NCBI RefSeq assembly: GCF_010091925.1
Contig: NZ_WVID01000040.1
Coordinates: forward strand, 1 to 45,708
Direction of reading: 5' to 3'
Length of the DNA: 45,708 bases
DNA from: Nostoc sp. B(2019)
GTDB lineage: Bacteria > Cyanobacteriota > Cyanobacteriia > Cyanobacteriales > Nostocaceae
Shown here: piece after piece, positions 8,087 through 39,671 of the stretch
How positions within the stretch are numbered: position 1 is the first letter of the stretch
Layout of the letters: the number at the start of each line of letters is the position of its first letter
Notes under the pieces: model-generated
The model's input: the letters and a program-made list of their open reading frames with translations, nothing else
What the model was told of the DNA's origin: nothing
The model's database searches: none
Program-made: the position numbers and the translations under genes

Positions 8087-8090
8087 AAGG

Positions 8091-8172: not shown

Positions 8173-8179
8173 ATATAAG

Positions 8180-8255: not shown

Positions 8256-8266
8256 ATCAGTGGATT

Positions 8267-8342: not shown

Positions 8343-8347
8343 ATGTT

Positions 8348-8423: not shown

Positions 8424-8428
8424 ATGAA

Positions 8429-8502
8429 TCCGAATGGTAGGATTTGAACCTACGACCGCCTGTTCCCAAAACAGGAGTGCTGCCAAGCTACACCACACCC
8501 GG
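8429..8502 (-). tRNA. trnP-UGG: tRNA-Pro(TGG)
   Basis: Acceptor CCGGGTG/CATTCGG with two G-T pairs, anticodon stem CCTGT/ACAGG, loop TTTGGGA (TGG), T loop TTCAAAT, discriminator A, no encoded CCA. Confidence 0.88.
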
Positions 8503-8507
8503 ATGAT

Positions 8508-8582
8508 ACAGAAGAGTGGGAGTTGAACCCACAACAAGAAAGTTTCTAAAACCAGCGCCTCTTCCAGTTGGGCTACAGGAGT
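8508..8582 (-). tRNA. tRNA-like sequence, degenerate (apparent anticodon TAG)
   Basis: The T arm (GTGGG/CCCAC, loop TTCAACT) and D arm are tRNA-like, and the anticodon loop would be TTTAGAA (TAG), but the anticodon stem has two mismatches and the acceptor halves (ACTCCTG and TCTTCTG) do not pair. It lacks the long variable arm of a tRNA-Leu. Probably a tRNA pseudogene or chimera. Confidence 0.5.
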
Positions 8583-8591
8583 ATAATTTAG

Positions 8592-8664
8592 CTGCCCTGC
8601 CAGGGTTTGAACCTGGAATCTTCTACTTCAAAGGTAGGGATGTTACCAGTTACACCACAGGGCA
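8592..8664 (-). tRNA. trnQ-UUG: tRNA-Gln(TTG)
   Basis: Acceptor TGCCCTG/CAGGGCA, anticodon loop CTTTGAA (TTG) on CCTAC/GTAGA (outer mismatch), T loop TTCAAAC, discriminator G. Confidence 0.88.
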
Positions 8665-8672
8665 ATGATTGG

Positions 8673-8746
8673 CTGCCGAGGTAGGGTTTGAACCTACAAA
8701 CTCCTGTTTCAGAGACAGGTGACTCTACCAATTCGTCTACTCGGCA
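8673..8746 (-). tRNA. trnQ-CUG: tRNA-Gln(CTG)
   Basis: Acceptor TGCCGAG/CTCGGCA, anticodon stem CCTGT/ACAGG with loop CTCTGAA (CTG), T loop TTCAAAC, discriminator G. It decodes CAG directly, a reader that a TTG tRNA makes partly redundant. Confidence 0.88.
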
Positions 8747-8756
8747 ATAAAATAAA

Positions 8757-8831
<75 letters not shown>

Positions 8832-8844
8832 ATATGCCAGCCAG

Positions 8845-8918
8845 TCCCCCAGATCCGGATTGAACGGATGGCCTCCTGTTCTTCAAACAAGCGCTACTAC
8901 CAACTGAGCTACCGGGGG
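8845..8918 (-). tRNA. trnF-GAA: tRNA-Phe(GAA)
   Basis: Acceptor CCCCCGG/CTGGGGG, D arm GCTC, anticodon loop TTGAAGA (GAA) on CTTGT/ACAGG, T loop TTCAATC, discriminator A. The acceptor is unusual for tRNA-Phe, so identity rests on the anticodon. Confidence 0.82.
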
Positions 8919-8924
8919 ATAAAG

Positions 8925-8998
8925 CGAGAACGGAGAGACTTGAACTCCCAATCTTCAGTTTCGTAATCTGAGATGTTATCCAGTTACACCACGTTCTC
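8925..8998 (-). tRNA. trnR-ACG: tRNA-Arg(ACG)
   Basis: Acceptor GAGAACG/CGTTCTC, anticodon loop TTACGAA (ACG) on a 4-bp stem with an A-A mismatch at the loop side, T loop TTCAAGT, discriminator G. Confidence 0.82.
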
Positions 8999-9003
8999 AA
9001 AGG

Positions 9004-9091
9004 CGGAGAGAGAGGGAGTTGAACCCACAGTGAGATGATGAATCCCACAACTGTTTAGCAAACAGCTTGCCCTGCCAATAGCAATCTCTCC
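9004..9091 (-). tRNA. trnS-GCU: tRNA-Ser(GCT)
   Basis: Acceptor GGAGAGA/TCTCTCC, anticodon loop TTGCTAA (GCT) on GCTGT/ACAGT, long variable arm, T loop TTCAACT, discriminator G. Confidence 0.88.
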
Positions 9092-9095
9092 GTAA

Positions 9096-9177
9096 TGGGT
9101 CAGGCTGGAATTGAACCAGCAAAACTGAACGCGACTGTTTTACAGACAGTTGCCCACACCAATAGGCGAGCCGACCC
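9096..9177 (-). tRNA. trnY-GUA: tRNA-Tyr(GTA)
   Basis: Acceptor GGGTCGG/CTGACCC, anticodon stem ACTGT/ACAGT with loop CTGTAAA (GTA), long class II variable arm, T loop TTCAATT, discriminator A. Confidence 0.88.
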
Positions 9178-9183
9178 AGATAA

Positions 9184-9256
9184 TTCCCCCGACGGGATTT
9201 GAACCCGCAATTTCCGCTTTGAAAGAGCAGCGACTTAACCGTTCGTCCACGGGGGC
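9184..9256 (-). tRNA. trnE-UUC: tRNA-Glu(TTC)
   Basis: Acceptor GCCCCCG/CGGGGGA with a G1-A72 mismatch, anticodon loop CTTTCAA (TTC) on CTGCT/AGCGG, T loop TTCAAAT, discriminator A. The 1-72 mismatch may affect charging or processing. Confidence 0.83.
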
Positions 9257-9273
9257 AGGGAGTAGAACTAGAA

Positions 9274-9344
9274 CGCACAGACAAGGATTTGAACCCTGAC
9301 CAAAGGTTTTGGAGACCCTGGTGCTGCCGTTACACCATCTGTGC
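9274..9344 (-). tRNA. trnW-CCA: tRNA-Trp(CCA)
   Basis: Acceptor GCACAGA/TCTGTGC, anticodon stem AGGGT/ACCTT with loop CTCCAAA (CCA), T loop TTCAAAT, discriminator G. Confidence 0.87.
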
Positions 9345-9346
9345 AT

Positions 9347-9423
9347 TGGTAGCAGTGGCGAGAGTTGAACTCGCATATACCAAGTTATGAGCTTGGGGCT
9401 TTGCCATAAATCGCTACACTGCA
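9347..9423 (-). tRNA. trnM-CAU: tRNA-Met(CAT)
   Basis: Acceptor TGCAGTG/CACTGCT (T1-T72 mismatch), anticodon stem CCAAG/CTTGG with loop CTCATAA (CAT), T loop TTCAACT, discriminator A, CCA encoded. A CAT anticodon could also be tRNA-Ile2 (lysidine); the unpaired 1-72 end resembles initiators but the anticodon stem lacks their GGG/CCC. Confidence 0.8.
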
Positions 9424-9428
9424 ATGCT

Positions 9429-9528
9429 TGGAGTCCAGGGCGAGAATTGTAGACACGAAGCGGCTTCCCGAAGGGTACTCGCACAGTCGGTTTTGCAGAC
9501 CAACGCCTTCCCATTTGGCCACCTGGAC
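9429..9528 (-). tRNA. trnC-GCA: tRNA-Cys(GCA) with an insertion in the T loop
   Basis: Acceptor GTCCAGG/CCTGGAC, anticodon stem TTGGT/ACCGA with loop CTGCAAA (GCA), discriminator T and encoded CCA. The T stem GCGAG/CTCGC is intact, but the T loop is 33 nt (9445-9477) instead of 7. The extra sequence carries a CCC-TTC-GGG hairpin and resembles a short palindromic Nostocales repeat. Without the TTC loop this RNA should not fold normally, so it is probably inactive unless processed. Confidence 0.75.
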
Positions 9529-9533
9529 ACATT

Positions 9534-9610
9534 TGGAAGCCTTGACGGGAGTTGCACCCGCTTGGACATGCTTGAGAGGCACAGCGACTTGTCTATTTGT
9601 CCACAAGGCT
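9534..9610 (-). tRNA. trnE-CUC: tRNA-Glu(CTC)
   Basis: Acceptor AGCCTTG/CAAGGCT, anticodon loop CTCTCAA (CTC) on TGTGC/GCATG, T loop TGCAACT (G for the second T), discriminator T, CCA encoded. Two departures from consensus suggest weak constraint. Confidence 0.78.
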
Positions 9611-9616
9611 ACAAGG

Positions 9617-9692
9617 CGGGAATGATGGGATTTGAACCCACGGTCTTTCGCTCGACAGGCAATCGCTTTGAACCGGACTAAGCTACACCCCC
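9617..9692 (-). tRNA. trnD-GUC: tRNA-Asp(GTC)
   Basis: First tRNA of the array. Acceptor GGGGGTG/CATTCCC, anticodon loop CTGTCGA (GTC) on ATTGC/GCGAA (outer mismatch), T loop TTCAAAT, discriminator G. Confidence 0.84.
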
Positions 9693-25959: not shown

Positions 25960-26901
25960 TTATTTACAGTACTTATTGCGATAACTACTTGTTGCCATCT
26001 GCGTTGCCTCAAATTCTGTCCACTGCTTCATCGGTTGTAGCTCTGGAAAACTGGCAAACTGATTTAAAATCGAGTTATCTTCTGTAACTTGAGCGATAAT
26101 TTGGGCGATGGCCTTGCAGCAACTTTGGGGCCACCGTACAATTTGCTCCTCACTGAAGCGAATTACAATCCAGCCTTTATTAGTGAAGAAATTATTGCGC
26201 TTGCTGTCTTTCCAAGCTCCAGCAAAGTGAGTTGGTGAGCCAGTGCGATAAACGTAAGGTTCATCTATCTCAATATCGATGTGAAGATTCAGCCCTTCTT
26301 CGATGTATGCAAAGTCTGGGGTGTATGGATGCTCAAAGTCAGGGATTTTGAGAGTTAGCCCTTTGTGAATCTTGCCAGGGAAATATCGGTTGAGATGATT
26401 ACCAAATAGAGTTTCTGCTTGACCTCTTCTTGCCCCACTACCATTGCCATCATGAGGTACAGTTTGACTGAGTACTTCTAGTAGCAGTTTGTAGCGAAAC
26501 TCAGCTACTCGTTCAGGACTTTGGGTGGCTTTTACTTCCTCATAATGCTGGCGCTTCTTTTTTTCGTAAATTTCTACCTTCTTGGGATAGGTTACTACCT
26601 CACGGTCATGCTTTTGCTTGCGCTGGGGATAGGTGGTGATTTGATGCCATGCATGACCTGCGATCGCTCCTGCTGCTGCCAAAAACAACAAGAACCCTGG
26701 CACTGTTCCACCTTGAGATACTATAGCGACACTAGGCACGGTGGCGACAGTTGCCTCAACAGCAATAACTGTTGTGTTCAGTTTTTGCGGTTCTACTCCT
26801 GGTTGCTGAGGTAGCGGTTCTGTAAATATGGGTTCCGGTGGCTTAGCTGATTTGACTCTCTGAATTTCCCCTGGAATCAGAATTATTGGGTATTGACTCA
26901 T
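25960..26901 (-). CDS. Membrane-anchored PD-(D/E)XK-like nuclease
   Basis: 313 residues. After about 45 disordered residues there is one hydrophobic segment (about 64-82, P-G-F-L-L-F-L-A-A-A-G-A-I-A-G), then a charged linker and a C-terminal domain with T-P-D-F-A-Y-I-E-E-G-L-N-L-H-I-D-I-E-I-D and G-W-I-V-I-R-F-S-E-E-Q, which fits a DUF559/Vsr-like PD-(D/E)XK fold (Asp, then Asp-x-Glu). Immediately downstream (3-bp gap) of the DUF559 nuclease, so translation may be coupled. Last gene of the defence-like operon. Confidence 0.6.
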   Translation of the reverse strand: MSQYPIILIPGEIQRVKSAKPPEPIFTEPLPQQPGVEPQKLNTTVIAVEATVATVPSVAIVSQGGTVPGFLLFLAAAGAIAGHAWHQITTYPQRKQKHDREVVTYPKKVEIYEKKKRQHYEEVKATQSPERVAEFRYKLLLEVLSQTVPHDGNGSGARRGQAETLFGNHLNRYFPGKIHKGLTLKIPDFEHPYTPDFAYIEEGLNLHIDIEIDEPYVYRTGSPTHFAGAWKDSKRNNFFTNKGWIVIRFSEEQIVRWPQSCCKAIAQIIAQVTEDNSILNQFASFPELQPMKQWTEFEATQMATSSYRNKYCK

Positions 26902-26904
26902 AAA

Positions 26905-27684
26905 TTAGACCAAAAACAAATTCAGGAACTCAATCACAACATTTTCAGGTTGCTCAAAGCATTCTTTAGCTGCAAATCTAACTGTAGGAATACCTTCTCG
27001 CAACAGCACCCTATCTCGCACATAATCTCTAGTTGTTTGTAAAGATTCTTGATGGTGATTACCATCTACCTCCAATATCATGCACTTGCCCTTATAAAAC
27101 ACCAAAAAATCAACTTCAATGCGTCCTGTCAGCCAACCACTTACATCAGAGATAGGAGAACCTTGTCGTCCAATTCGACCCCGTGCATTAGCAAAGAATA
27201 AGACCTCTTTGTTATCCAGTTCTTCGGCAATTTTGATTTCGGCTTTGGAGCGAAAGTACATTCCCCCCCATTCATACAGAGGGTTTACATCAGTCTTAAC
27301 TTCTTGTCCAGAGTCAGTGTCATTTTGTGGTGTATCTATTCCTGGTACAGCCAAGGCACTTTGGCGAGTGAACTGCTTTACTTGTTGTTGGTAATAACTA
27401 TCAAAAAATAATCGCCACCAGTGCTGAGTACCATGTCCATCACGCTGGTTTGCATAAGCTAGGTGCAAATGTTCGTTAAACTCTAAATAGTATCCAGGTC
27501 TAGTTTTTGAATACAAATATCTGTTAATTTTTGTTCTTAAGTTTTTATCATTATTATTTTGTCTAGAAATTACAACTAGTAAATCTAATAGCTTACCTGT
27601 CTGCAATTCTAAGTAATACGGAAGTTTTCCCCCGACTGGGACAAGAGAATTACCCTTGACTTGATGCTCTATTCCCTGAACCAT
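26905..27684 (-). CDS. DUF559-type endonuclease
   Basis: 259 residues. The C-terminal about 110 residues carry the PD-(D/E)XK core: E-V-D-F-L-V-F-Y-K-G-K-C-M-I-L-E-V-D-G-N-H-H-Q and R-D-R-V-L-L-R-E-G-I-P-T-V-R-F, as in DUF559/Vsr-like nucleases. Residues about 130-175 contain R-S-K-A-E-I-K-I-A-E-E-L. The N-terminal domain is family-specific. It follows the helicase gene by 55 bp and precedes the membrane nuclease by 3 bp. Confidence 0.75.
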   Translation of the reverse strand: MVQGIEHQVKGNSLVPVGGKLPYYLELQTGKLLDLLVVISRQNNNDKNLRTKINRYLYSKTRPGYYLEFNEHLHLAYANQRDGHGTQHWWRLFFDSYYQQQVKQFTRQSALAVPGIDTPQNDTDSGQEVKTDVNPLYEWGGMYFRSKAEIKIAEELDNKEVLFFANARGRIGRQGSPISDVSGWLTGRIEVDFLVFYKGKCMILEVDGNHHQESLQTTRDYVRDRVLLREGIPTVRFAAKECFEQPENVVIEFLNLFLV

Positions 27685-27739
27685 TTTTAGTTATCTTTAA
27701 TGTCATGTTAAGCAAGTGATCGCATCCTTAACTTTTCCT

Positions 27740-30700
27740 CTAAGAATCTGGTTTAAACCACTGATAGCAAATTAACTTAATGTCTTTTTGCTGGATAATT
27801 TCTACTGGTCTTATATCTTGTTCATCTTCCAATTCCTCATATTGGTCAGTGTCAACAAAATATTCATCTAGTTCAGCCACAAGTAAGCTAATGTTTTTGT
27901 GGTTTTTAAACTTATCCCAGACGGCTTTAACATCTCGCTCATAACTCCGAGAATTAACTGTAGTGATAACTTTTAACACCCGTTCTTTGGCTTCTTCATC
28001 TGTTGGTTCCACTTGAAATAAGTCAGGCTGGGTTAGGGCATGATGAATGCTTTGTAATAGCTTAGACATTTGTGGTTTGATACCTTTGCCCGTCTGCTGT
28101 TTTTGGAAAGATGTAAACAGATTGCCTATGGCTCTTTCTAAAACAGGGAAAATGCGGTTATCAAACTGAACTGGTGGGAGGTCGTCAGGTTTGGGAAAGT
28201 CTGACTGTTGGCATTTAAGCCAATTGAAAATGGTACGTTTGTCACTTATTAGTTTGTTTTCGTCTAGCGAGATAGCGCCATCAATGCGTGGGTAAAAATG
28301 CCAGAAGTGTTTATCATTGGCACGGAAGGCTAGAAAGATGCCACCATCGGGAACATCACGGTGGGGAATGGGTTTATTCCAGGTGCTATGAATGCCAAAG
28401 GGAATATCATCAATTATTTCCTTACTGGCCTGTTGTAGAAACTCTAGTAAAGGTAATCTCATTTCATCTAGGGATACCAAATCTGCTGATTGTTCTAGTT
28501 CCTCTAAAATGGCTTGTTTTTGGGCATCAGTGTCAGCCATTTTTAGTCTGTACAGTTCTTCTAAGGATCTATCAGAAACAGTTTCACCCAGTACACTACT
28601 GTCTAACCCTACTTCCCGGTCAATGGTGGCAATGCGTTGTTGTAGTCTTTTGACTAACCCTAGTAAATCCTCAAGTCCCTGTTCTGGGAAACAGTTGTAG
28701 ATAAATAGCTCGTCATAATCAGTGCCTAAGCGGTCAATCCGTCCTGCCCTTTGAATCATGCGTACTGGGTTCCAGTGCAGGTCATAATTAACTAACACCC
28801 CGGCATCTTGCAGGTTTTGACCTTCTGATAAAACATCGGTACAGATGAGAATATCAATAGGATTTTCTTGTAATAGGGTTAGTTCTTCATCACTTTGAGC
28901 GTTAGCTTTGGGGGCAAACTGCTTAACTTTCTCTTCCCGTTGTTTGCTGGGGGTTGCACCAGTCAATAACTCAATCACCGGCACTTGACCGTTGACTTGC
29001 ATTTGGGATAGCCAATCTGTATCTATAATCAGTTGTTTGTATAAATAATTAGCCGTGTCTTTGAAGTAGCTAAATACTAAAATCTTTTGACCTTGCAGTT
29101 GAGTTGTCAGCAGGTGTTTGAATGCTGCTAACTTGCAGTCATAGTCTGTGTTAGCTGCGGCTGAGGATTCAATTTTGTCTAAAGTGATAATAATGTTGTT
29201 TAAGATTTTCAGGTCAGCTTCAATCTGCTGTTGCAGTTGGTTGAGGTTATAGTCTTTAGATTCAACTTCATCTAGTGACTCAATAATGGTATTAACTGAG
29301 TTACTTTCCTCTTCATCTGTTTCAACAGCTAATACCAACTTGCGAAAATTTTTACTATCTAACAACTTTCCTTGTTGGGTAAGAATTTCATAAAAATTAG
29401 TCTGGAAGTCTCGCTGGTTACGAATGCTATTTTTAAAAGCCAGCAGTGAACTTTCAAATCGTTTAAAATAAAGGGCTTTTTGTAGGGCAACTAGGGCATC
29501 ATTGCGCTTAACTTCTTTTTCCTCTTCTTTATCCTTGCGCTTTTTAAAAGCCTTAATGTTATAAGCAGGTAGGTTAAGCTTGTCAATCTGAGTAGCTATC
29601 CCCGTATACAGTCCAGCAAAGCTATCTTCAAAGTTATAGGTAAACTGTTCTAACTGACGTTTAGGAAAGTGAATTAATTTCCCATTAATGCGAATTTCTT
29701 CACCTGCTTGTTGCCTTCTAATCACATCCTGGCGGCTCCTCCTCACCATTGTTTGCATGAGAAGTTCTGTAATTTCTACCCCACCTTTAGCTAGAGCTTT
29801 AAAATAAGTTTTTAGATTAGAAATACCCCATTCTCGGTAATAGGTTTCACCGCCACGAGTTAACAACAAGATTTGATGGTAAAGGTCAAATATGCTGTTG
29901 TTGATGGGGGTAGCAGTCAGTAACACTACCCGTTTATTGCGCTTACCACTACTGACTAGCTTCAATAAATTACGGTAGCGATTTGTGGCACTGTTGCGGA
30001 AGTTATGAGACTCATCCACTACCACAATGTCGTAACGGGCATAATTATGTAAGTTAAAGTTTTGGCGGCTGATTTCTTCATGGGAAATTACATCAGCTTT
30101 AATACCAAATTCATCTAGTTTTTTATCCCACACTAATCTTTTGAGTTGAGCCGGACAAACCACCAAGGCACGGGGGACAAATCTCGGTTTCTTAAGTTTA
30201 ATTAGGTAATAGTCCAGCAGCCGCAAACCAATAAAGGTTTTCCCCAAACCAACAGCATCAGCAATAACACAGCCATCATGTCTTTCTATGAGTCTGACTG
30301 CTCTTTCAAACCCCTCTTGTTGGAAACTGGCCAGTTCTAATGAGGTGCGATCGCTCTCGCCAATGATGGTATCTTCTTTGAATAGTTCGTATAGGGCTTT
30401 GAGAAATATTTGGTAGGGGGTGTAAGCTTTACTGCCAAACTTGGAGGCGTTGAGGGCGTCAATTAACTTGGTTTTGTAATCAACATCAACACTCTCGTGA
30501 TTCCAAAACTCTGTAAACCAGTTATGGCGTAAGTCTTGGGCAATGGCTCTTTGCTTGTTGACTATGTTTAGTTCTCGGTTGGTGTCAATCCCCGCCGGGG
30601 TGAAGTTACTAGAGCCAACAATACTATAGTCATCAAATATATAAGCTTTGGCGTGTAAAAATTCACCGTTAGTTGCCCCATACAGTCTGACCAAGATGTG

Positions 30701-31030
30701 GTCTTGTTGCAGATATGCAATCATCCGGTCAATCTGCTGTTTATAGCCTGCCTTAAAGTCCTCCTCCTCTAGTTCTTGCTGAATGTCGCGGCGGAAGTAG
30801 CGGATTAGGTCGATGTGATCGCTCTCTGCTGGTCGAATAGTTGGGTCGCGTCCAATCAGCAGCCGCAGACTTGTTAGCTGGTTCATAGCAGCTTCTAACC
30901 GTACCCATGCCTCGATGCGGAAAAAGCCGGTGGCGATATCGAGGATAATCTGGTTTTCATCCTCAATTAAGGTTTTGAGGATGGTTTCTAGTTTGTAGCG
31001 GGAGTTGTCTATGTAGTCTGGTAGAGGCAT
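27740..31030 (-). CDS. PLD-domain SNF2 helicase
   Basis: 1096 residues. N-terminal PLD-like domain with H126-A-K128 and D near 133-134 (H-A-K-A-Y-I-F-D-D-Y-S-I-V-G-S-S-N), one HxK motif. SNF2 helicase: Walker A G-L-G-K-T 261-265, D-E-S-H 339-342, T-A-T-P 372-375; C-terminal D-V-L-S-E-G-Q-N-L-Q and Q-R-A-G-R-I-D-R. A Lys/Glu-rich coiled coil lies between the lobes. Such proteins act as ATP-dependent translocases in restriction- and DISARM-like systems. The start is 18 bp after the DUF4209 gene. Confidence 0.87.
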   Translation of the reverse strand: MPLPDYIDNSRYKLETILKTLIEDENQIILDIATGFFRIEAWVRLEAAMNQLTSLRLLIGRDPTIRPAESDHIDLIRYFRRDIQQELEEEDFKAGYKQQIDRMIAYLQQDHILVRLYGATNGEFLHAKAYIFDDYSIVGSSNFTPAGIDTNRELNIVNKQRAIAQDLRHNWFTEFWNHESVDVDYKTKLIDALNASKFGSKAYTPYQIFLKALYELFKEDTIIGESDRTSLELASFQQEGFERAVRLIERHDGCVIADAVGLGKTFIGLRLLDYYLIKLKKPRFVPRALVVCPAQLKRLVWDKKLDEFGIKADVISHEEISRQNFNLHNYARYDIVVVDESHNFRNSATNRYRNLLKLVSSGKRNKRVVLLTATPINNSIFDLYHQILLLTRGGETYYREWGISNLKTYFKALAKGGVEITELLMQTMVRRSRQDVIRRQQAGEEIRINGKLIHFPKRQLEQFTYNFEDSFAGLYTGIATQIDKLNLPAYNIKAFKKRKDKEEEKEVKRNDALVALQKALYFKRFESSLLAFKNSIRNQRDFQTNFYEILTQQGKLLDSKNFRKLVLAVETDEEESNSVNTIIESLDEVESKDYNLNQLQQQIEADLKILNNIIITLDKIESSAAANTDYDCKLAAFKHLLTTQLQGQKILVFSYFKDTANYLYKQLIIDTDWLSQMQVNGQVPVIELLTGATPSKQREEKVKQFAPKANAQSDEELTLLQENPIDILICTDVLSEGQNLQDAGVLVNYDLHWNPVRMIQRAGRIDRLGTDYDELFIYNCFPEQGLEDLLGLVKRLQQRIATIDREVGLDSSVLGETVSDRSLEELYRLKMADTDAQKQAILEELEQSADLVSLDEMRLPLLEFLQQASKEIIDDIPFGIHSTWNKPIPHRDVPDGGIFLAFRANDKHFWHFYPRIDGAISLDENKLISDKRTIFNWLKCQQSDFPKPDDLPPVQFDNRIFPVLERAIGNLFTSFQKQQTGKGIKPQMSKLLQSIHHALTQPDLFQVEPTDEEAKERVLKVITTVNSRSYERDVKAVWDKFKNHKNISLLVAELDEYFVDTDQYEELEDEQDIRPVEIIQQKDIKLICYQWFKPDS

Positions 31031-31048
31031 TTATTCTAGTATTTATTC

Positions 31049-32803
31049 CTACTCATTTTCTTGTGAAGATTCACGGTTTGAAACTATAGGCAAATAACAT
31101 AAATGTAGTGTAAGCCACCATAAATAAACGACTAGTGGTGTATAAAAACCATTGAGGCTAATTAAGCCATGAGCCATTAAATTTCTTAAATTAGAGCCAA
31201 ATCCTTTGCGGTTTAATAAACCTATTAAATCAAAAGCAATATCTTCTCCAAAAATTGCTTGTAAATCTGCTTCATGCTTATCAAATAGTACGCTCATTAT
31301 GTATTCATCTTGTATGCCTTTGTCGAGCCAAGATGTAATATTTCCTCTGCGTTTGACAAGGCAACGGAGAGAATGTTCTATTTGAGGAATTAAAAGATGT
31401 GCTGCAATTAAAAAATCACCAGTTAAACCAGCATGAAGTCCTCTAGCATATATCTCTTCGCGTCCTCTGGGAACAAAAGGATTATTAGTAACAATTTCAT
31501 AAAAATCACTAATTTTAATATAATGTTCTAAATTAATTTGATATCTAGCTGGCTCAATAACAGCTTGAACCTGAATCTGTTGATACCTAATAGCAGTTGT
31601 ATACATTTCGTCTTCTAAAGATGGGTTCTGTCCTATTATCTTGCCTGTTTCATTGATATAGACCGGAGGAAAAATGCTTCTAGATATACTTGTAGTGATT
31701 ATTTCTTGAGTTTGTTGTTTAATTTGAGATACGCTAGGGGATTTAAATAAAAATGCTAAAGTAAAAAGGGCTTCATGTAACTCTTTACCCTTAACTTGTT
31801 GCATAACTTGTCCAGCAATATCACTAATATCTATCTGCTGAGAAAAAGATTGTAGTTCTGTAGTAGATTTTTGTTGATAGTCTAGTAAAGTTGTATGTAT
31901 TTGTTGTATACGAGTTTGATTACCTCCGATATTTGTTAATGCCTCAATAGCCTTGATTAAGAAATGAGATGCGGCTAGACAGCTTGGAGATGTTTGGTTG
32001 ATTTTATCTTCTGCTTCTTTTACATAAGTTTCGGCATAAGATAAAGATGCAGAGCGTTCTTGGTTAGCATTTTGGTTTTTCCGATGCCAGCCAATGGCTA
32101 TTTCCCAATAGTTTCTTGCTTTATGCCAGTTATGCTCTGTTTCGGCTCGACGTGCTGCCTTTTCTGAAATAGAGGCATATTTTAATGGATCTCCTTTTTT
32201 GAATTCCTGTAGGAGTTCCATCAATTTTGCAGATAGAAAAGAAAGGTCTTCTCCGTTATACTTGTCCAATACACTTTCGATATAAGTAATAACTTTATCC
32301 TTGTGAGTCTTCTGATTAGCTTGATAAGCTAAACGAATTGCCCGTTCAATTCTCTCTACTGATAATGTCCAACGCTCTGGGTTATCTAATAATTTAGCAG
32401 CTTCTAAATAAGAATCAATTGCAATTTGTGCCATGCGATAGTCACGGTTACGTATCCAAATAATATCTGCTATTCTCCCTTGAAGTTCGTAATCAAATAT
32501 TTCTGACACCCACTCTTTCAAAACTGCTAAATATTCATTACTAATATCACTAATAAAATCCATGTAATAGAAAGGCTGTTCAGTAGACTCGGATTTTAAG
32601 GTGGGAGATGTAATTCCTGATAGTACCGCTAAAGTAACTTGGAGTTGAGTATTACCCTGTTGTTCAGCTTCTTGGGATTTAAGCCAAAATAAACGTGAAT
32701 AGTGATTGCAAGTTCTTTCTTCTGAATTGTTAACAACTTCTTCCCAGTTACAGTTAATAAAATTATCTTTTGATAAAGGAATATTTGGAAATGATGAATC
32801 CAT
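31049..32803 (-). CDS. DUF4209 protein with HEPN-like RxxxxH motif
   Basis: 584 residues, largely helical. The C-terminal part matches DUF4209: G-L-H-A-G-L-T-G-D-F-L-I-A-A-H-L-L-I-P-Q, then F-G-E-D-I-A-F-D-L-I-G-L-L, and R-N-L-M-A-H-G at about 540-546. R-x4-H with a following Gly is the conserved motif of DUF4209 and also fits HEPN nucleases. It lies 5 bp downstream of the methyltransferase stop and 18 bp upstream of the helicase, inside a tight operon. An RNase/abortive-infection role is an inference. Confidence 0.78.
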   Translation of the reverse strand: MDSSFPNIPLSKDNFINCNWEEVVNNSEERTCNHYSRLFWLKSQEAEQQGNTQLQVTLAVLSGITSPTLKSESTEQPFYYMDFISDISNEYLAVLKEWVSEIFDYELQGRIADIIWIRNRDYRMAQIAIDSYLEAAKLLDNPERWTLSVERIERAIRLAYQANQKTHKDKVITYIESVLDKYNGEDLSFLSAKLMELLQEFKKGDPLKYASISEKAARRAETEHNWHKARNYWEIAIGWHRKNQNANQERSASLSYAETYVKEAEDKINQTSPSCLAASHFLIKAIEALTNIGGNQTRIQQIHTTLLDYQQKSTTELQSFSQQIDISDIAGQVMQQVKGKELHEALFTLAFLFKSPSVSQIKQQTQEIITTSISRSIFPPVYINETGKIIGQNPSLEDEMYTTAIRYQQIQVQAVIEPARYQINLEHYIKISDFYEIVTNNPFVPRGREEIYARGLHAGLTGDFLIAAHLLIPQIEHSLRCLVKRRGNITSWLDKGIQDEYIMSVLFDKHEADLQAIFGEDIAFDLIGLLNRKGFGSNLRNLMAHGLISLNGFYTPLVVYLWWLTLHLCYLPIVSNRESSQENE

Positions 32804-32808
32804 AATTT

Positions 32809-35800
32809 TTACTCTCCTTTAATAATCTTCATTTCTTCAGCAGTCAGCCCATACAGATAAGCTACCCTATCATCTATCTCTGCTTCCCACTCCTCTACAC
32901 CCTGACCTTTAGCATCAAGGCATTTTTGAACTAGGGCAGAGATGGCTAGGCGGTTTGCTTCAAGGATGGTGGGGATAGGTATTTGCTCAACATATATGGA
33001 TTTAAATCTCATAAAATCACCACGAACTCTAGGACTAATTTGAGAAAAAAAGAAATTAGCTATTGTAGAGTTTAAAATTCCCAATAATTCTAGTGTTCCA
33101 TTAGGAACTATAGAAAGAGTACAATCTGTAAATAAATTTTCAGTATCCCATACAAAATTACACTTTTTTGAAATATCTGGATAAATTATTTTATCTTTTT
33201 CAAATTCTTTAAAGTAAGTAATAGCATAAGGAATTTGGAACCAATCATCTCCATCTCTAACTACATTTAACCTTTTCTCTAATCCCTCTTTAAATTTTAT
33301 TAAATGTTTTTTGATTGCCGGATAAGATTCAATATTAGTTCCTTTTCTAGTAAAAATTAGATAAATATCGTCATAATTTATTTTCCAATAAGTCACATTT
33401 CTGCCTCGTAAAAAAGGCTTAATTAGCGTAGAGCTTTTCAAATCTTCCTCAATTAGCTCATCGCGCTTTTTTCGATCAATTATGAAAGCTTCATTTAAGC
33501 CAGTGACTATGCCTCGATAAATTCTACTTTTTATAAAATCACGTAGAGGAGTACCATTGGCTCTTACTTGCTCGAGAATTTTGAGAGTCATAGTAGACTC
33601 TAACCGCCACCCATCAGCCCCTAATTCCTTCTGAGGCATATAAAAACTTTGGTTCTTATATACCGAGTTAAACTCATCAACAGATTTGCCAACTTCCCAA
33701 TTCAACACACGGGCTTGATGATTATCTGGCTTACTCTTGCTAACCAAAATAATGCTCGGATATGCGATCGCTTCAAATACTGGTGCATCACCAAAATCAA
33801 TCAACACCTGAACTTGTGACTTTTCCCCCAAGAATTGACGTAGTTTTTCACCATAGCCTGCACGGAAGTATTTGTTAGACGTGATGTAAGACAAATGCCC
33901 TCCAGACTTGAGCAGCCTAAACCCACGCTCATAAAAGTAAACAAAGAGGTCAGACACCCCGGTGTAACATTCATATTCTTGCTGAAGGGCTGGCTTGAGT
34001 TCTTTAATCTGCTCTTGTCTCACATAAGGCGGATTCCCAATTACAATGTCAAACCCACCCTGCTGTTGAAACACCTCATTAAAGTGCAGATGCCATTGGA
34101 AGAAATTAAGCGATCGCATCCCCTTTTCCACCTCAGCCGCAAACTTACCCAACTCAGCCAACTTATCAGCAATCTGTTGACGTTCCTTTTCCTGAGCCTT
34201 GCTGACTTTGCCCTTCATCAGCTTAATTTTGTTTTCTAATTCCCTCTGCTTCCCTAACCCAAAGGAACGACGGTCTGCGATCGCAACTCGAAACACATTC
34301 TTCTCAGCTTCTAAAATTTTTCCTCTAAGAATCTTGCGCTCCTGGGCATGAGACTCAAAGTACTGGTGTTGCAAGTCTATTAAAGGTTGAATAGCTGATT
34401 GTATAGGGGTGACATTCAGCATTGTCTGTTGGTCTTTGGTGGGGTCAGGAATTAACTGCTCACCTTGAATAGTAGAAATTAGTGAATCCCCACACATCAA
34501 CTTGTAATCAAGGTTAGGCAGTGGTTCCACATCATCAATATCAGGAATGTCTACCACCAGCGATAACCACATCCGCAGCTTAGCGATTTCAACCGCTTCG
34601 GGCTTAATGTCCACACCATAGAGATTATTAGCAATAATGTCCCGCTTCCATTGACTGATAGTGAGACTACCCCGCTCTACAGTCATGCCCTCCCGATGAG
34701 CGATCGCTTGTTTGACTGACAAAATTACCTGCATCATCCCCATTGGGAATGCACCAGAACCCACAGCCGGGTCACAAATCTTCACAGAGTCTAGAGCTTT
34801 TTTTAACTGTTTCGCCTGCTCTTTAGTCAACAGTTGGTTAATATCCTGTCCTGGTAGTTCAGAGTCATATTCTGTCAGCTTTCTGACTGCTTCCAAGTCC
34901 ATGCCGCTCTGCAAAGCTAGATAGCGACTCAGAGATTCTACACACATGAACTGGACAATACCTCTGGGAGTGTAGAAAGTGCCGCTTTGCCCCCGTTCCT
35001 CAGATGCCAGCATATTCTCGAACACTTTACCCAGCATCTCAGGGTCAACTGCTGCATCTTCATCACCCTGAACGTTTTCTGAGACGGTGAAGTTATAGCT
35101 GTTAAAGAACCTAAGAATACCTTTGTCGCCACTGGGGTCAAAAAGGGAATTAGGCAATTCGATTTGAAGGGGTGTTTCCACGCCAGCAGTATCAATTACA
35201 CCTGTCCCATAATCCCGGTCAAACAGTCCACCATTGAGATAAGGAATCTTACCCCAAGGGGAATCCATATTTGGGCGCTGTTTGTTGAGCATTTCAAAAA
35301 ACAACGGCTCTAGCACCTGGGTATAGAAATCTGTATCTTCTAGTTCAGAACGTAGCTTGTTGTACTGGTTTTTAAGAAAATTGCGATCGCCTCCCAAAAA
35401 CTCCTTTTTCTGCAAAAAGTAGAGGAACATGATTCGTCCCAAGAGCCGTTGAGAAAACTGGTGCAGCCGATTGGGGTCATTAAAGTAGGAATGCTGGTTG
35501 TTAGCTTTGATAACCTGTTGCAACTCCTCAAAGATTTCTCGATAACCCCGATAGAACTCTTTAGTCAGCTTTTCTACATCAAAGGCTTCACACTGCACTT
35601 TATACAGTTCTTGAGGAGAAAGATTACGAGCAGCGATCGCATCTAGGCGGTCACGGTCGTAGTTGGTAGGATTAGCTCTGTCAATCAGTAACTTGCGGAT
35701 GCTAACTTTTAAATTCAGGTCAGCATCAAAGGTTTTGCGGGGATTGACCAACATCAACTGGTCATAGTTTTTTGTACCCAACAGCAGAAAATTAGAGGGT

Positions 35801-36096
35801 CGTCTACAAAGACTTTGAGCTAGCGATCGCATCCGGTTACTAGCAACACTGGGAGATTGCCACTCGTTTTCTTGAAGCTGAAACAGCAAAACTTGCAGCG
35901 ACTCACTACCTTTTTGATGATCGGCAATCATGTATGCGTTCCAAATGGCTTCTGCACTCCGAGCAGGTAGCTCCAAGTCATCAATAGCTAATTGTTGAGC
36001 AGAAGCGTTGTAGCCAATTTTTTGAAATAAAGATGCTACGTTCTCTGGAGTATCTATGTGCCTTACATCATCTAGTTGGAGTAGTCGCCCCTTCAT
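32809..36096 (-). CDS. Eco57I-like class I adenine-N6 DNA methyltransferase
   Basis: 1095 residues. SAM motif I D-P-A-V-G-S-G-A-F at 442-450, catalytic N-P-P-Y at 688-691, a coiled insert of about 90 residues between them, and a C-terminal TaqI-like specificity region with N-x-T-x-x-x-F and E-Q-I-P-I-P elements. An N-terminal about 130-residue domain (L-L-G-T-K-N-Y-D-Q-L-M-L-V-N-P) precedes; no nuclease motif is obvious there. It methylates adenine at a target site and marks self DNA; partner of the helicase. First gene after the XRE regulator. Confidence 0.87.
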   Translation of the reverse strand: MKGRLLQLDDVRHIDTPENVASLFQKIGYNASAQQLAIDDLELPARSAEAIWNAYMIADHQKGSESLQVLLFQLQENEWQSPSVASNRMRSLAQSLCRRPSNFLLLGTKNYDQLMLVNPRKTFDADLNLKVSIRKLLIDRANPTNYDRDRLDAIAARNLSPQELYKVQCEAFDVEKLTKEFYRGYREIFEELQQVIKANNQHSYFNDPNRLHQFSQRLLGRIMFLYFLQKKEFLGGDRNFLKNQYNKLRSELEDTDFYTQVLEPLFFEMLNKQRPNMDSPWGKIPYLNGGLFDRDYGTGVIDTAGVETPLQIELPNSLFDPSGDKGILRFFNSYNFTVSENVQGDEDAAVDPEMLGKVFENMLASEERGQSGTFYTPRGIVQFMCVESLSRYLALQSGMDLEAVRKLTEYDSELPGQDINQLLTKEQAKQLKKALDSVKICDPAVGSGAFPMGMMQVILSVKQAIAHREGMTVERGSLTISQWKRDIIANNLYGVDIKPEAVEIAKLRMWLSLVVDIPDIDDVEPLPNLDYKLMCGDSLISTIQGEQLIPDPTKDQQTMLNVTPIQSAIQPLIDLQHQYFESHAQERKILRGKILEAEKNVFRVAIADRRSFGLGKQRELENKIKLMKGKVSKAQEKERQQIADKLAELGKFAAEVEKGMRSLNFFQWHLHFNEVFQQQGGFDIVIGNPPYVRQEQIKELKPALQQEYECYTGVSDLFVYFYERGFRLLKSGGHLSYITSNKYFRAGYGEKLRQFLGEKSQVQVLIDFGDAPVFEAIAYPSIILVSKSKPDNHQARVLNWEVGKSVDEFNSVYKNQSFYMPQKELGADGWRLESTMTLKILEQVRANGTPLRDFIKSRIYRGIVTGLNEAFIIDRKKRDELIEEDLKSSTLIKPFLRGRNVTYWKINYDDIYLIFTRKGTNIESYPAIKKHLIKFKEGLEKRLNVVRDGDDWFQIPYAITYFKEFEKDKIIYPDISKKCNFVWDTENLFTDCTLSIVPNGTLELLGILNSTIANFFFSQISPRVRGDFMRFKSIYVEQIPIPTILEANRLAISALVQKCLDAKGQGVEEWEAEIDDRVAYLYGLTAEEMKIIKGE

Positions 36097-36229
36097 TGCA
36101 GTATTTTCCTTGACTAAAAAGTTACTTCTCCCAAACCCTTGCTGTGTATCGACCGTAATTAATCTGAAGAAAGCAGCTTAAATCTGCGATGGGCAAAACC
36201 CATCGCCCACATCAAAACTGAGCAAACAA

Positions 36230-36478
36230 CTAATTCGGCAAATACTTCGCCAGTAAATCCTGACCTTGAGCGCCCATCTCTTCCAACATCCCCTCAATCT
36301 TCCCCATCGCTAGCGGTGACGGTTTAGAGCGCCCATTTTCCCAACGGTTAATCGTGGTGTAAGTAACGCCTAGAGTGGCTGCAAATTGTTCTTGCGTTAG
36401 CCCAGCCAAAAGCCGCAAATCACGAATGATCTGCCCCACCTCTGGCTGGTTGATAGCCAAGGGTTTTTTGATAGTCAT
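36230..36478 (-). CDS. XRE/Cro-type regulator
   Basis: 82 residues, helix-turn-helix L-T-Q-E-Q-F-A-A-T-L-G-V-T-Y-T-T-I-N-R-W-E. A small Cro-like protein before a methyltransferase resembles controller proteins of restriction systems. It is separated from the methyltransferase by 133 bp, so it may be transcribed with it or control it. Confidence 0.8.
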   Translation of the reverse strand: MTIKKPLAINQPEVGQIIRDLRLLAGLTQEQFAATLGVTYTTINRWENGRSKPSPLAMGKIEGMLEEMGAQGQDLLAKYLPN

Positions 36479-36676: not shown

Positions 36677-37918
36677 TCAAATACCATTAGGCCAACGCCA
36701 ATTATCATAAGCTTGCAGCTTAGAGCCTATCTCTTCATAGGCAGAAGGACTTAAAACACAGTTGTTATAAGGATGTCTAACAATTGAACCAGGTGATGAG
36801 AATTGATTGGGCTGGAATGGATTAAAATTTTCTATACTAACAATTTGCTCATAGTCTTTAATAATTGTTTTCAGTAACGATAAGCAGATTACATTAGCTC
36901 CTGTTTTTTCTATGAAAATACGAGCAGCTTCTAAGGAATAACCTTGTGTGCAAAAATCGTCAATAAGTAAAACTGTCTTACCCTTTTTCAAAGGAGGATT
37001 TGTATAAATCTTATTATCCCCGTAAGAAGGTAGTTTATTAATATAAATAGTATTCAACTGATTCAGATGATCAATTATTTCACCCGAACTTCTCGCATAA
37101 GCTGATTTTCTCGAAGTAGTATGTCGAATAATTAAGTTTTTGAAATATTTTTTTCTAAAGCATTTAGCAAAAGCTACTAAAGTTTCTTCCATCACAGTAG
37201 GTGTAGAACCCTTTTGATGACCAGGATAAGGAGCAATATAGTCTATTCGTTCATGCAACCCCGAAAAATATACAGCAGATAGTAAATACTTGATCCAAAA
37301 ATCAGGATGCCCTCTACCAAATTTTGCAGCTTCTCGTGCATCAGAAGAATAGATAGAATATTTCTCTTCACGAGTACCATAGATTCCTAGAGCGTAGTAT
37401 TCTAAGTTCTGATAATTAATATTAAAATTCCAAAAGTGTTTACGTAAACAGAATATATCAATAAATCTAGCAACATCTTTAGGCGATAAGAATTCAAAAC
37501 CATAACTATTAATTTGTGTATACCATGTTGCATTTAAAAATAGAAGACCACCATTAACAGCAGTCTTCATATCTACATCTGTATTACCCAAATAAACAGT
37601 TTCATTCTTCTTCCACCTCATGACATTTAAGACGTAATTAATAGAATCTTTTGAAGGTTTATGAGGCGTACTATCAATATTTGCAATAAACCACTTAAAA
37701 TCTTCCCATTTATTTGTGAATAAATCTTTTAGTCTTTGACCATTGATAGACCAATCACGATTGGCTAACACAACTGGTTGAATACCATTTTGATATAGGA
37801 AATTAATTAGGCGACCCGTTTCATTCAAAATAGATGGGTCAATTTGTGCATTATCTTCCTTGCCAGTCGCCAAGATATTGTCAATTCCTAAAATAATTCC
37901 TTTCAATATTTGAACCAT
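36677..37918 (-). CDS. HAD-like plus phosphoribosyltransferase-like protein
   Basis: 413 residues. The N-terminal about 145 residues resemble a HAD fold (I-I-L-G-I-D-N-I, Y-L-G-N-T-D-V-D-M-K-T-A), the C-terminus has the phosphoribosyltransferase PRPP loop K-T-V-L-L-I-D-D-F-C-T-Q-G-Y-S-L-E-A-A at about 312-330. It follows the DprA-like gene by 18 bp. PRTase/DprA pairs have been proposed as conflict systems; phosphoribosyl transfer to a nucleotide or nucleic acid is an inference. Confidence 0.72.
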   Translation of the reverse strand: MVQILKGIILGIDNILATGKEDNAQIDPSILNETGRLINFLYQNGIQPVVLANRDWSINGQRLKDLFTNKWEDFKWFIANIDSTPHKPSKDSINYVLNVMRWKKNETVYLGNTDVDMKTAVNGGLLFLNATWYTQINSYGFEFLSPKDVARFIDIFCLRKHFWNFNINYQNLEYYALGIYGTREEKYSIYSSDAREAAKFGRGHPDFWIKYLLSAVYFSGLHERIDYIAPYPGHQKGSTPTVMEETLVAFAKCFRKKYFKNLIIRHTTSRKSAYARSSGEIIDHLNQLNTIYINKLPSYGDNKIYTNPPLKKGKTVLLIDDFCTQGYSLEAARIFIEKTGANVICLSLLKTIIKDYEQIVSIENFNPFQPNQFSSPGSIVRHPYNNCVLSPSAYEEIGSKLQAYDNWRWPNGI

Positions 37919-37936
37919 ATTTATTGAGTTTAGTCA

Positions 37937-39049
37937 TTAGTTGAAGTCAAAGAGGGATAATTGCTGAGGGTGATTATCAACCTGTTGTTTATTCTTAAAC
38001 TCTGGAGTTTCATTTTTAGCTTGCTGACCATTTACACTACTCTGCAATTCTTCTTCCGCTTCTTGGGAGTGGGCTGCAAAACTATTATTTTTAGTTAAAG
38101 ATTCATTGAGAGCAGTTATAAATTTTAGTTCTTCACCTGGAATGGTAAAAATATCCGCACCTAACTTTTCAGCAAACAATAATTCACTGTGATCATTAGA
38201 CCAATCAGGTAATTTAAGGCACACTATTCGCTTCTGAGCTTTGTGTGCAAATTTAACAGTGTGTGATGTTCCGCCTTTTTCTTTCCACTCCACTGGTATA
38301 ATAACGTTACTCAAGCCAGCTTGCAACCGATTACGATGCACAAAGTTTTCAGCACTATAGCTTTGGTTTGGTAAATACTCTGAGACTATTGCACCGCCAT
38401 TCTCGCAAATTTCCTGGCGCAATTTTTCAGAACCAGCAGGATAGTTTTGAAGTATACCAGTTCCAATAAATGCAATTGTAGGAACTTTAGCTCTAATAGA
38501 TTTTTTGTGAATTATTTGGTCAATACCCAGTGCTAATCCGCTGACTGTAACCGCATTAAAGTACTGAAGACAGGCTCCAACGTAATTAGCAAGAAATAAC
38601 CCATCTTCCGAAGGCTTTCTTGTACCTACAATAGCTAAAGCTGGTTGATGCAAGATAGAAATATCACCTTGAACAAACAACCATTTTGGAGGGTCGGATA
38701 TTTCGCGCAGAGATTGAGGAAAATTATCTTGCCCAAAGTGAATAACTTGTATTCTTTCAGCTTCAAGTTGGCGATAGAGTTTGACAGCTTTGCTCCATGT
38801 TTCTTCTCGAAATTTTACCCAGTCTTCACCTATCTGGCTGGTAATCTGATTGATATTTTTACACTTAGCCTGCACGAGATAAGTAATGAATTCAGTACTT
38901 GATTCGGCTTGAAGTACTTGCTTGAAGCCTAAACCTGCTAGCGCAATGTTTCTGATAGTCCAATATCCTACGCTATGCAGCAATGACAAAGTAAGTAGAG
39001 ATACTGTCTCACTTACCCAAAAGTCTATCTTGCCATTGCCGTTCGTCAT
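37937..39049 (-). CDS. DprA/Smf-like protein
   Basis: 370 residues. The Rossmann-like DprA core is clear: L-A-I-V-G-T-R-K-P-S-E-D-G, V-T-V-S-G-L-A-L-G-I-D, G-T-G-I-L-Q-N-Y-P-A-G-S, G-A-I-V-S-E-Y-L-P and F-V-H-R-N-R-L-Q-A-G-L-S. Divergent N- and C-terminal extensions (a Glu/Gln-rich tail) distinguish it from the housekeeping competence DprA. It is the first gene of a two-gene unit with the HAD-PRTase protein, so a defence-type DprA homologue binding ssDNA or nucleotides is likely. Confidence 0.8.
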   Translation of the reverse strand: MTNGNGKIDFWVSETVSLLTLSLLHSVGYWTIRNIALAGLGFKQVLQAESSTEFITYLVQAKCKNINQITSQIGEDWVKFREETWSKAVKLYRQLEAERIQVIHFGQDNFPQSLREISDPPKWLFVQGDISILHQPALAIVGTRKPSEDGLFLANYVGACLQYFNAVTVSGLALGIDQIIHKKSIRAKVPTIAFIGTGILQNYPAGSEKLRQEICENGGAIVSEYLPNQSYSAENFVHRNRLQAGLSNVIIPVEWKEKGGTSHTVKFAHKAQKRIVCLKLPDWSNDHSELLFAEKLGADIFTIPGEELKFITALNESLTKNNSFAAHSQEAEEELQSSVNGQQAKNETPEFKNKQQVDNHPQQLSLFDFN

Positions 39050-39173: not shown

Positions 39174-39671
39174 CTACAGCTGCTCCATCTTCACCCCTGC
39201 CACTTCCATCATCACCGTAGTAATCGGCACAAGCCGCCCTACAGTCGTGTAGTGACTGTCTCTTACTGGCGTTGTAGTCGAACGCTCCCGAAACCGCTTC
39301 ATGGTAATCAAAAACCACTCCCGCGTTTTTGGCATCGGTAGCCTGTACAGCTGGCGAGTGTTGACAAAGTAATAAAATAGCCAGTTTGCCTCCGTGTACA
39401 TGAAGCAGCCGGGGGTTCCCTTCTCTAAATTACTGTGAGTTTCAAAGAACAAGTTACGAGTTTTATTCCACCTGTCACCCTTCACTTCAATCAAAATTTC
39501 ACCCGTCTGCGTTGTCCAGATGAGGTCAATATCTCTGCGTTGATAGTCTGGGTCATTTTCAACGTTGGTGACGCTCCTTGTTTCTGGTTTTGCCCACAAC
39601 CACGCCTCAATATCAGCAGCAGCAAGTTTTGCTACCTGCACCGCGTCATCCATGCTGTAGGCGTAGGTCAT
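39174..39671 (-). CDS. PD-(D/E)XK nuclease-like protein
   Basis: 165 residues. D-I-D-L-I-W-T-T-Q-T-G-E-I-L-I-E-V-K-G-D-R-W is the core of a PD-(D/E)XK nuclease (Asp, then Glu-x-Lys). GGAGC precedes the ATG. Function unknown. It is upstream of the DprA-like gene on the same strand, 125 bp apart. Confidence 0.68.
   Translation of the reverse strand: MTYAYSMDDAVQVAKLAAADIEAWLWAKPETRSVTNVENDPDYQRRDIDLIWTTQTGEILIEVKGDRWNKTRNLFFETHSNLEKGTPGCFMYTEANWLFYYFVNTRQLYRLPMPKTREWFLITMKRFRERSTTTPVRDSHYTTVGRLVPITTVMMEVAGVKMEQL

Follow-up and report, generated by a model that had tools for sequence, protein, structure and literature searches.

A modular, putatively restriction-like operon with a variable cargo slot and a shared adaptor module in Nostoc sp. 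B(2019)

The window analysed here, 45,708 bases of Nostoc sp. B(2019), is an entire contig (C44) of a 7.4-Mb genome and contains an operon that encodes an adenine DNA methyltransferase (MTase), a DUF4209 protein and a helicase combining PLD and SNF2 domains, together with an XRE regulator and DUF559-like proteins. With moderate confidence, we read the locus as a modular ATP-dependent restriction-like system, in which an N-terminal adaptor of the MTase would dock the helicase and a slot between the two genes holds exchangeable cargo. The core of the system is of a known kind and DUF4209 belongs to a known candidate family; the slot, the adaptor and the alternation of MTase and sigma-70 partners are new. 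The original prediction had described five genes at this locus, and all of them lie where it placed them in the list of open reading frames (ORFs): XRE, MTase, DUF4209, helicase and DUF559, all on the minus strand. The gaps it gave for MTase-DUF4209 (5 bp), DUF4209-helicase (18 bp) and helicase-DUF559 (55 bp) are correct, the XRE-MTase distance is 133 bp, and the motifs it named (DPAVGSGAF, NPPY, HAK as the one HxK, RNLMAH, EVDF and EVD) are present in the translations. The features of the operon are as follows.

36230..36478, minus strand: XRE/HTH_3 regulator, 82 amino acids (aa); Pfam HTH_3, 2e-14
32809..36096, minus strand: adenine-N6 DNA MTase of Eco57I/TaqI_C architecture, 1095 aa; Pfam, PADLOC type IIG models
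35557..36096, minus strand: adaptor module, MTase residues 1-180; phmmer and hidden Markov model (HMM) matches, alignment
32947..33456, minus strand: target-recognition region (TaqI_C, MTase residues 881-1050); Pfam, identity comparison
31031..32808, minus strand: variable cargo slot between MTase and helicase, 1778 bp; locus comparison
31049..32803, minus strand: cargo gene, DUF7380 + DUF4209 protein (PADLOC PDC-S39), 584 aa, N-terminus of helical repeats, predicted HEPN RNase at the C-terminus; Pfam, PADLOC, structural model
31169..31186, minus strand: R540-x4-H545 (RNLMAH), predicted RNase motif; conservation
27740..31030, minus strand: predicted PLD-SNF2 helicase-nuclease, 1096 aa, PADLOC C3a139 'HKD+Snf2'; Pfam, PADLOC
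30503..30811, minus strand: PLD domain (PLDc_2, helicase residues 74-176) with a single H126-x-K128 and GSSN at 139-142; Pfam, alignment
26905..27684, minus strand: accessory DUF559/DUF2726 nuclease-like protein, 259 aa; Pfam DUF559, 2e-6
25960..26901, minus strand: second accessory gene, 313 aa, DUF559-like C-terminus; 19.5 bits against a Pfam cut-off of 20.6

The core of the operon appears to be a restriction-like pair of adenine MTase and PLD-SNF2 helicase. In the MTase, an Eco57I methyltransferase domain (Pfam, 6e-47) and a TaqI_C specificity domain (5e-17) are joined in a single chain, as type IIG enzymes have them (Pfam, PADLOC); no Pfam nuclease matched the protein, in which residues 181-400 were not examined for a nuclease. 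The helicase matches PLDc_2 (1.7e-12), SNF2 (2.9e-16) and Helicase_C (1.2e-17). Relatives were obtained by a scan of genome contigs with the helicase, from which the best 80 of 168 were taken (77 loci), and plasmid and whole-genome loci were added to give 87 helicase loci, one contig being present twice (L180 is the same contig as L046; it stays within the 87 and is left out of the cyanobacterial counts). Upstream of the helicase, a related MTase is found in 38 of these loci, spread over several phyla and including two that are fragments only (L061, L098), and a sigma-type protein in 14 rows, representing 13 distinct contigs; the short loci L031-L037 and L150-L152 were excluded from this partner table. 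The restriction-like core that had been proposed for this locus is therefore conserved well beyond its own genome. The cyanobacterial clade, defined by a helicase HMM score above 1400, comprises 32 loci: 14 of the MTase type (including L005, interrupted by an IS630 transposase, and the truncated L059), 13 of the sigma type (including the degenerate L046 and L177) and five with no partner upstream, of which L038, L042, L052 and L057 lie near contig ends and L149 has a giant-protein fragment downstream.

Conservation within these loci points to function in both core proteins. In the helicase alignment, position 126 is H and position 128 is K in 75 of 76 rows each, and the Walker A lysine is kept in 81 of 81; among MTases longer than 700 aa in the collected loci, NPP[YFW] is present in 33/33 and motif I ([DN]PxxG[ST]G) in 32/33. 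Since these motifs are conserved, the MTase and the helicase are under constraint and probably catalytic. The target-recognition region behaves differently: in 11 relatives it is 26-55% identical to that of the window, compared with 51-97% in the adaptor, which suggests that it diverges fast or is exchanged. An XRE relative (phmmer) accompanies 12 of the 14 MTase-type and none of the 13 sigma-type cyanobacterial loci, and this protein is probably the controller of the operon. Downstream, no more than about 4 kb away, 8/14 MTase-type and 1/13 sigma-type loci have an EVE-like gene or part of one; among the eight, L049 was scored from L151, which is the opposite end of its plasmid record. The same genome contains a second PLD-SNF2 helicase, about 36% identical (L181, G000:C21:286707-294189), with a 1010-aa MTase upstream and small intervening ORFs of its own.

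The stretch between MTase and helicase is exchanged among relatives. Over the 14 MTase-type cyanobacterial loci, the distance between the two genes ranges from 311 to 2445 bp, and the 23 ORFs found there fall into 15 families (the ORFs are mechanical calls of at least 60 aa and may include non-genes). Elsewhere the slot encodes a KilA-N protein and a DnaJ-domain protein for which membrane segments are predicted, and another slot holds a pair of 183 and 420 aa with no convincing Pfam match. The comparison with L003, whose helicase is 94% identical to that of the window, delimits the exchange: the DNA is 85% identical up to 32795 and 92% identical from 31031 on, with no alignable DNA between these positions. 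The same gap appears in comparisons with L041, L051, L004 and L039, together with a second gap over the target-recognition region. Of 13 loci, 11 have a first slot gene whose start lies -8 to +46 nt from the stop of the MTase, and in 10 the last slot gene ends at most 28 nt from the helicase start; because of these tight junctions, the slot can be regarded as a defined place inside the operon. One candidate role for the slot genes was rejected. In L004 and L040, the target-recognition regions are 97% identical and the first slot gene is common to both, while the rest of the slot differs, and this partial overlap argues against a restriction subunit, or cognate endonuclease, matched to the target of the MTase.

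What, then, is the DUF4209 gene in this slot? The protein matches Pfam DUF7380 (1.5e-39) and DUF4209 (1.1e-7) and the PADLOC family PDC-S39 (PDLC05011) over its full length (3.7e-241, residues 6-583); PMC11878078 names PDC-S39 in connection with P. aeruginosa PAO1. It had been proposed as a constituent, abortive-infection arm of the system, and its distribution does not bear this out. DUF4209 is present in one of the 87 helicase loci and one of the 38 MTase-type loci, the window itself in both cases. A further 58 DUF4209 loci were collected (8 cyanobacterial genes, 1 fragment locus, 13 plasmid regions, 6 gammaproteobacterial loci and 30 viral contigs); none of them had a match to the helicase, adaptor or sigma profiles, and the MTase profile gave a single weak match (45 bits, L006), so that co-occurrence with MTase and helicase was not found beyond the window in the loci examined, apart from that weak match, and DUF4209 is excluded as a core component. 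The gene is present in 10 of 386 cyanobacterial genomes, the window's included and one (G502) having just a 91-aa open frame, and in 6 of 369 genomes of the gammaproteobacterial sample, the class of L087, a record titled Thioalkalivibrio. Ten neighbours of DUF4209 scanned with Pfam included three housekeeping genes (polA, ValRS, putA) and one without a match, the others encoding YhcG, UvrD, FRG, pentapeptide-repeat, histidine-kinase or transposase proteins. Taken together, the sequence comparisons suggest that DUF4209 is a mobile defence candidate with no fixed link to the MTase-helicase core, and that it landed in the slot.

Two observations concern DUF4209 loci outside the window. On a Salmonella plasmid (L143:6305-8137), the gene lies inside a P2-like prophage and is flanked there by the genes for the replication endonuclease and the portal protein. 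In five of the eight cyanobacterial loci (L127, L129, L130, L131, L132), it is followed, with a 4-nt overlap, by a gene of 140-144 aa, possibly a partner or antitoxin.

The C-terminus of the protein is most likely a HEPN RNase, as predicted from family assignment and motif. The DUF4209-C6orf70 family was classed as HEPN in 2013, with the remark 'Occurs in R-M related operons' (PMC3710099, R-M standing for restriction-modification). All 17 DUF4209 proteins compared have R540 and H545, and among 30 relatives from viral contigs 29 show R-x4-H-G, the remaining one being cut at the contig end. The structural model (pLDDT 82, pTM 0.50) has a long helical N-terminus and C-terminal helices. Foldseek with the whole model gave no match at E <0.001, mostly helical-repeat proteins and no HEPN protein among the matches listed, and for this reason the HEPN fold is taken from the published assignment and the R-x4-H motif. 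A PDB sequence search with the DUF4209 profile had as its best match (E 0.0006) the chain 9y59 'CSD20f3B', after which came TPR proteins and designed helical repeats.

The second module of the system became apparent in the sigma-type loci. Many sister loci have, upstream of the helicase, a gene that matches the window MTase over residues 1-188 only, which makes residues 1 to about 180 a separable adaptor. Nine adaptor proteins run on, according to Pfam, into a complete sigma-70 factor (regions 1.2, 2, 3 and 4), and two more (L146, L148) match the sigma profile. For the 11 intact helicase-adjacent sigma-70 proteins, residues 1-188 are the only part of the window MTase that matches, weakly so in L056 (41 bits). 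Six intact adaptor-sigma proteins have 458-620 aa, five are giants of 2387-2401 aa, and two more loci are degenerate.

L043:7052-8887, L045:1685-3547 (Laspinema), L047:2495-3961: adaptor + complete sigma-70, directly upstream of the helicase
L048:1627-3255, L050:8638-10161, L056:2800-4176: adaptor + complete sigma-70, directly upstream of the helicase
L044:2698-9891, L055:2694-9890, L146:11322-18527, L147:3631-10794, L148:2240-9433: giant adaptor-sigma genes

In the giants, adaptor and sigma-70 are followed by about 1850 residues, with a weak AAA_22 match just under the cut-off in the three scanned (Pfam); in L055, a Phormidium locus, this stretch was matched by neither NCBIfam nor PADLOC models. 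The sigma region of the L055 protein (residues 172-482) matches SigA of PDB 8h3v at 1.3e-113. In the 13 sigma-type loci there is no slot, as the sigma gene lies directly against the helicase gene or overlaps it (gap -161 to 162 bp). The two partner types alternate on the helicase tree: at least four changes are needed, of which supported branches make three unavoidable, and neither the MTase type nor the sigma type comes together as one clade in the bootstrap trees (0% of 200). Adaptor and helicase identities are correlated over 25 loci (rho 0.74, with none of 2000 permutations as high), also across MTase-sigma pairs (0.56). Searched for by profile, the adaptor is present in 12 of the 386 cyanobacterial genomes, and in eight of the 12 the helicase lies beside the adaptor (two with degenerate adaptor genes; G420 was taken as L043 because their coordinates coincide). 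The other four have one truncated adaptor-MTase and one intact adaptor-sigma gene on a short contig, both without a helicase, and two fragments only.

The adaptor itself was modelled confidently (pLDDT 88). Its invariant columns are F24, G28, Y29, L43, Y55, A58, V69, L71, A93 and T108, with no acid-lysine set; in our reading of the model, helices and strands follow each other much as in a restriction-nuclease core, but without conserved catalytic residues. PADLOC had no match for the adaptor alone, the best match of a PDB sequence search with its profile was a ferritin (E 0.11), and no description of an adaptor-sigma/SNF2 operon was found in the free-licence PMC literature.

These parts can be combined into a mechanism, in which the docking, addressing and cutting steps are drawn from gene linkage and knowledge of the families, and the RNase step from the HEPN assignment. 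The XRE protein would set the expression of the operon. The MTase would read its target through the variable TaqI_C region and methylate self DNA, and its N-terminal adaptor (residues 1-180) would dock the PLD-SNF2 helicase-nuclease. The latter would translocate from unmethylated sites, with the paired PLD domains of two helicases cutting the DNA during translocation, following the dimeric SauUSI as described in PMC7913695. The cargo in the slot, here DUF4209 as a HEPN RNase, could provide a second, growth-arresting defence if restriction fails; it may well work without the MTase-helicase core, because it is found elsewhere without it. In sigma-type operons, the adaptor carries sigma-70 in place of the MTase, and the helicase-nuclease would probably be addressed to RNA polymerase or promoters. 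A bolder generalization, which we offer tentatively and consider possible rather than probable, is that one plug-in adaptor addresses the helicase-nuclease to unmethylated sites through the MTase and to promoters or RNA polymerase through sigma-70, in which case invading DNA would be attacked because it is transcribed, and that the slot receives interchangeable suicide effectors, of which DUF4209 is the one found here.

Several results weigh against the modular interpretation or parts of it. The helicase has no recognised upstream partner in 35 of the 87 loci, partly because of contig ends and partly not; in a few loci without an upstream MTase, one lies elsewhere nearby (L095, L097, L111, L112). 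In L176, an intact adaptor-sigma gene has no helicase beside it on a contig that ends 1.2 kb further on. The adaptor-helicase correlation fits a docking partner, but is partly expected from common descent. Foldseek gave five matches of the adaptor at E <0.001, all of them meso-diaminopimelate dehydrogenases with TM 0.24-0.29, and no convincing PDB relative (TM at most 0.30 among the 50 matches listed), so that docking is derived from linkage. The alternation of partners may reflect differential loss from a tandem ancestor and not swapping, because remnants of an adaptor-MTase gene (L043:6175-7045) lie just upstream of the adaptor-sigma gene of L043. On the side of the cargo, an hhalign comparison of DUF4209 with three PF05168 proteins gave no HEPN match and was uninformative; the earlier assignment of the protein to HEPN thus holds as far as the published classification and the invariant R-x4-H go, and its fold was confirmed by neither Foldseek nor hhalign. 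Finally, 5 of the 13 plasmid regions (Chlorohelix, Natrinema, Deinococcus QL22, Aeromonas and Bradyrhizobium) have annotated R-M genes no further than about 7 kb from DUF4209, and in Candidatus Chlorohelix a type III-like MTase gene overlaps the DUF4209 gene. This nearness, counted without a control, may exceed that of an unrelated gene, and a loose preference of DUF4209 for R-M neighbourhoods remains.

This preference, together with the published remark on R-M related operons (PMC3710099), favours another explanation, namely that the locus is one coupled system whose DUF4209 HEPN RNase is an abortive arm triggered by the MTase-helicase core. The gaps of 5 and 18 bp agree with such coupling, and so does the slot's position within the operon, where its junctions are tight in the majority of loci. 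Moreover, 12 of the 23 slot ORFs have a predicted membrane segment in a crude hydropathy scan (only a marginal one in the window's DUF4209), a property common in suicide effectors, and slot genes could share a trigger. We nevertheless hold this explanation to be unlikely: DUF4209 is confined to the window among the helicase and MTase-type loci, its 58 other loci contain neither helicase nor adaptor, and its neighbours elsewhere include the housekeeping genes polA, ValRS and putA as well as a P2-like prophage.

Another question is whether MTase and helicase form a restriction pair at all. The MTase could be self-contained and type IIG-like, or a solitary epigenetic enzyme, and the helicase could be a RapA-like, RNA-polymerase-associated remodeller that repairs or clears DNA. 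The helicase does match RapA (48.8 bits), as well as RapA chains of the PDB over about 50 residues of the helicase core, and the sister operons pair it with a sigma-70 protein whose resemblance to SigA is described above. We judge this explanation improbable, since the nearly invariant H and K of the HxK motif point to a nuclease, divergence is much stronger in the target-recognition region than in most other parts of the MTase, and the operon stands beside a ShosTA pair and has relatives on plasmids.

The ShosT/ShosA pair just mentioned occupies 36677-39049 on the minus strand, directly upstream of the operon and on the same strand (PADLOC, 3.5e-85 and 2.5e-85), and with this pair alongside, the region looks like a small defence island. 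Further on, at 39174-39671 (minus strand), a 165-aa protein has a weak match to the SfsA RE domain (Pfam, 0.0034) and an EVKGD motif, and is possibly a small PD-(D/E)XK nuclease. At its downstream end, the operon is extended by the 313-aa DUF559-like gene, which begins 3 bp downstream of the DUF559 gene on the same strand, by which the operon reaches 25960. The DUF559 nuclease is an optional part: two sister loci, L042 and L151 (L049's plasmid), have relatives 3' of the helicase, and in L041 the match is distant and on the opposite strand. The contig as a whole is probably plasmid DNA, because pieces of 27 plasmid records match it, 21 of them from Nostoc, and because it carries an array of 17 tRNA genes (8089-9692, minus strand). 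Comparison of the contig ends found no terminal overlap.

If the modular reading is right, a restriction helicase-nuclease has been re-addressed in evolution by changing what a small docking module carries. Where the module carries a sigma factor, this would be an unusual way of recognising foreign DNA. Closely related operons whose differences lie mainly in the slot and the target-recognition region would also form a natural series, against whose constant background defence genes embedded in the slot, PDC-S39/DUF4209 among them, can be compared. The HEPN role predicted for DUF4209, and for C6orf70 as its eukaryotic relative, would become testable.

Among known systems, a divergent DISARM, BREX or DUF499-centred BREX-related (Type-2 BR) locus is a very improbable explanation of the operon. 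In its favour, the helicase scores with DrmD and HmaA models and the MTase with DrmMI and PglX models, and the Snf2 helicase of Type-2 BR bears an N-terminal HKD domain (PMC12839542). NCBIfam models of DISARM, BREX and Dpd are, however, missed widely (DrmD 153 against 610 bits, BREX-1 PglX 111 against 500), and the PADLOC DrmA model is matched in the window only by the SNF2 helicase (57 bits). No window ORF exceeds 440 aa apart from MTase, DUF4209 and helicase, leaving no room, at the sizes of these proteins, for a DUF499 ATPase, DrmA, DrmB (DUF1998) or PglZ. The same is true of BrxC/PglY, the size of BrxC being taken from PMC12839542. As these parts are missing, membership in DISARM, BREX or BR is rejected for the window, the rest of the genome not having been searched.

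Type-2 BR is still a close parallel. As described in PMC12839542 and PMC7641849, it combines an N6-MTase with an HKD/PLD-Snf2 helicase, is predicted to be restriction-like and recurrently has an EVE neighbour; the fusion of an N-terminal PLD/HKD domain to the Snf2 helicase is also present in the window. It differs in having a DUF499 ATPase and DUF3780, for neither of which the window has a candidate (the Pfam scan covered ten operon and flank proteins, not the other window ORFs). The window differs in turn by its Eco57I/TaqI_C MTase with an adaptor and by a cargo slot in the place of the ATPase. SauUSI (PMC7913695) couples a nuclease to a helicase-like ATPase and is the source of the translocate-and-cut model, but recognises methylated targets. 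CglI/NgoAVII (PMC5737866, PMC4267653) has a nuclease and a helicase-like ATPase too, but on two proteins. MZA, in which mzaA is a sigma factor (PMC9523054), is a precedent for a sigma-70 protein in an anti-phage system and hence relevant to the sigma-type operons. The sigma-type proteins were nonetheless rejected as MzaA, the match being confined to the sigma part of the profile (420-660 of 683; two proteins with PADLOC, five with NCBIfam). The class 1 gene set of DISARM resembles the window in its Snf2 helicase, here with a DrmD-like score, its MTase and its PLD domain; the window has no DrmA or DrmB candidate, and its PLD domain is fused to the helicase instead of forming a separate DrmC. 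The nuclease of SauUSI is reportedly of the PLD kind as well, and SauUSI is said to have no MTase. The window cargo is a full member of the PDC-S39/DUF4209-C6orf70 HEPN family, its position in a slot being seen only in the window. The idea of embedded defence genes is itself said to be in print already, under a title along the lines of 'New antiviral defences are genetically embedded within prokaryotic immune systems'.

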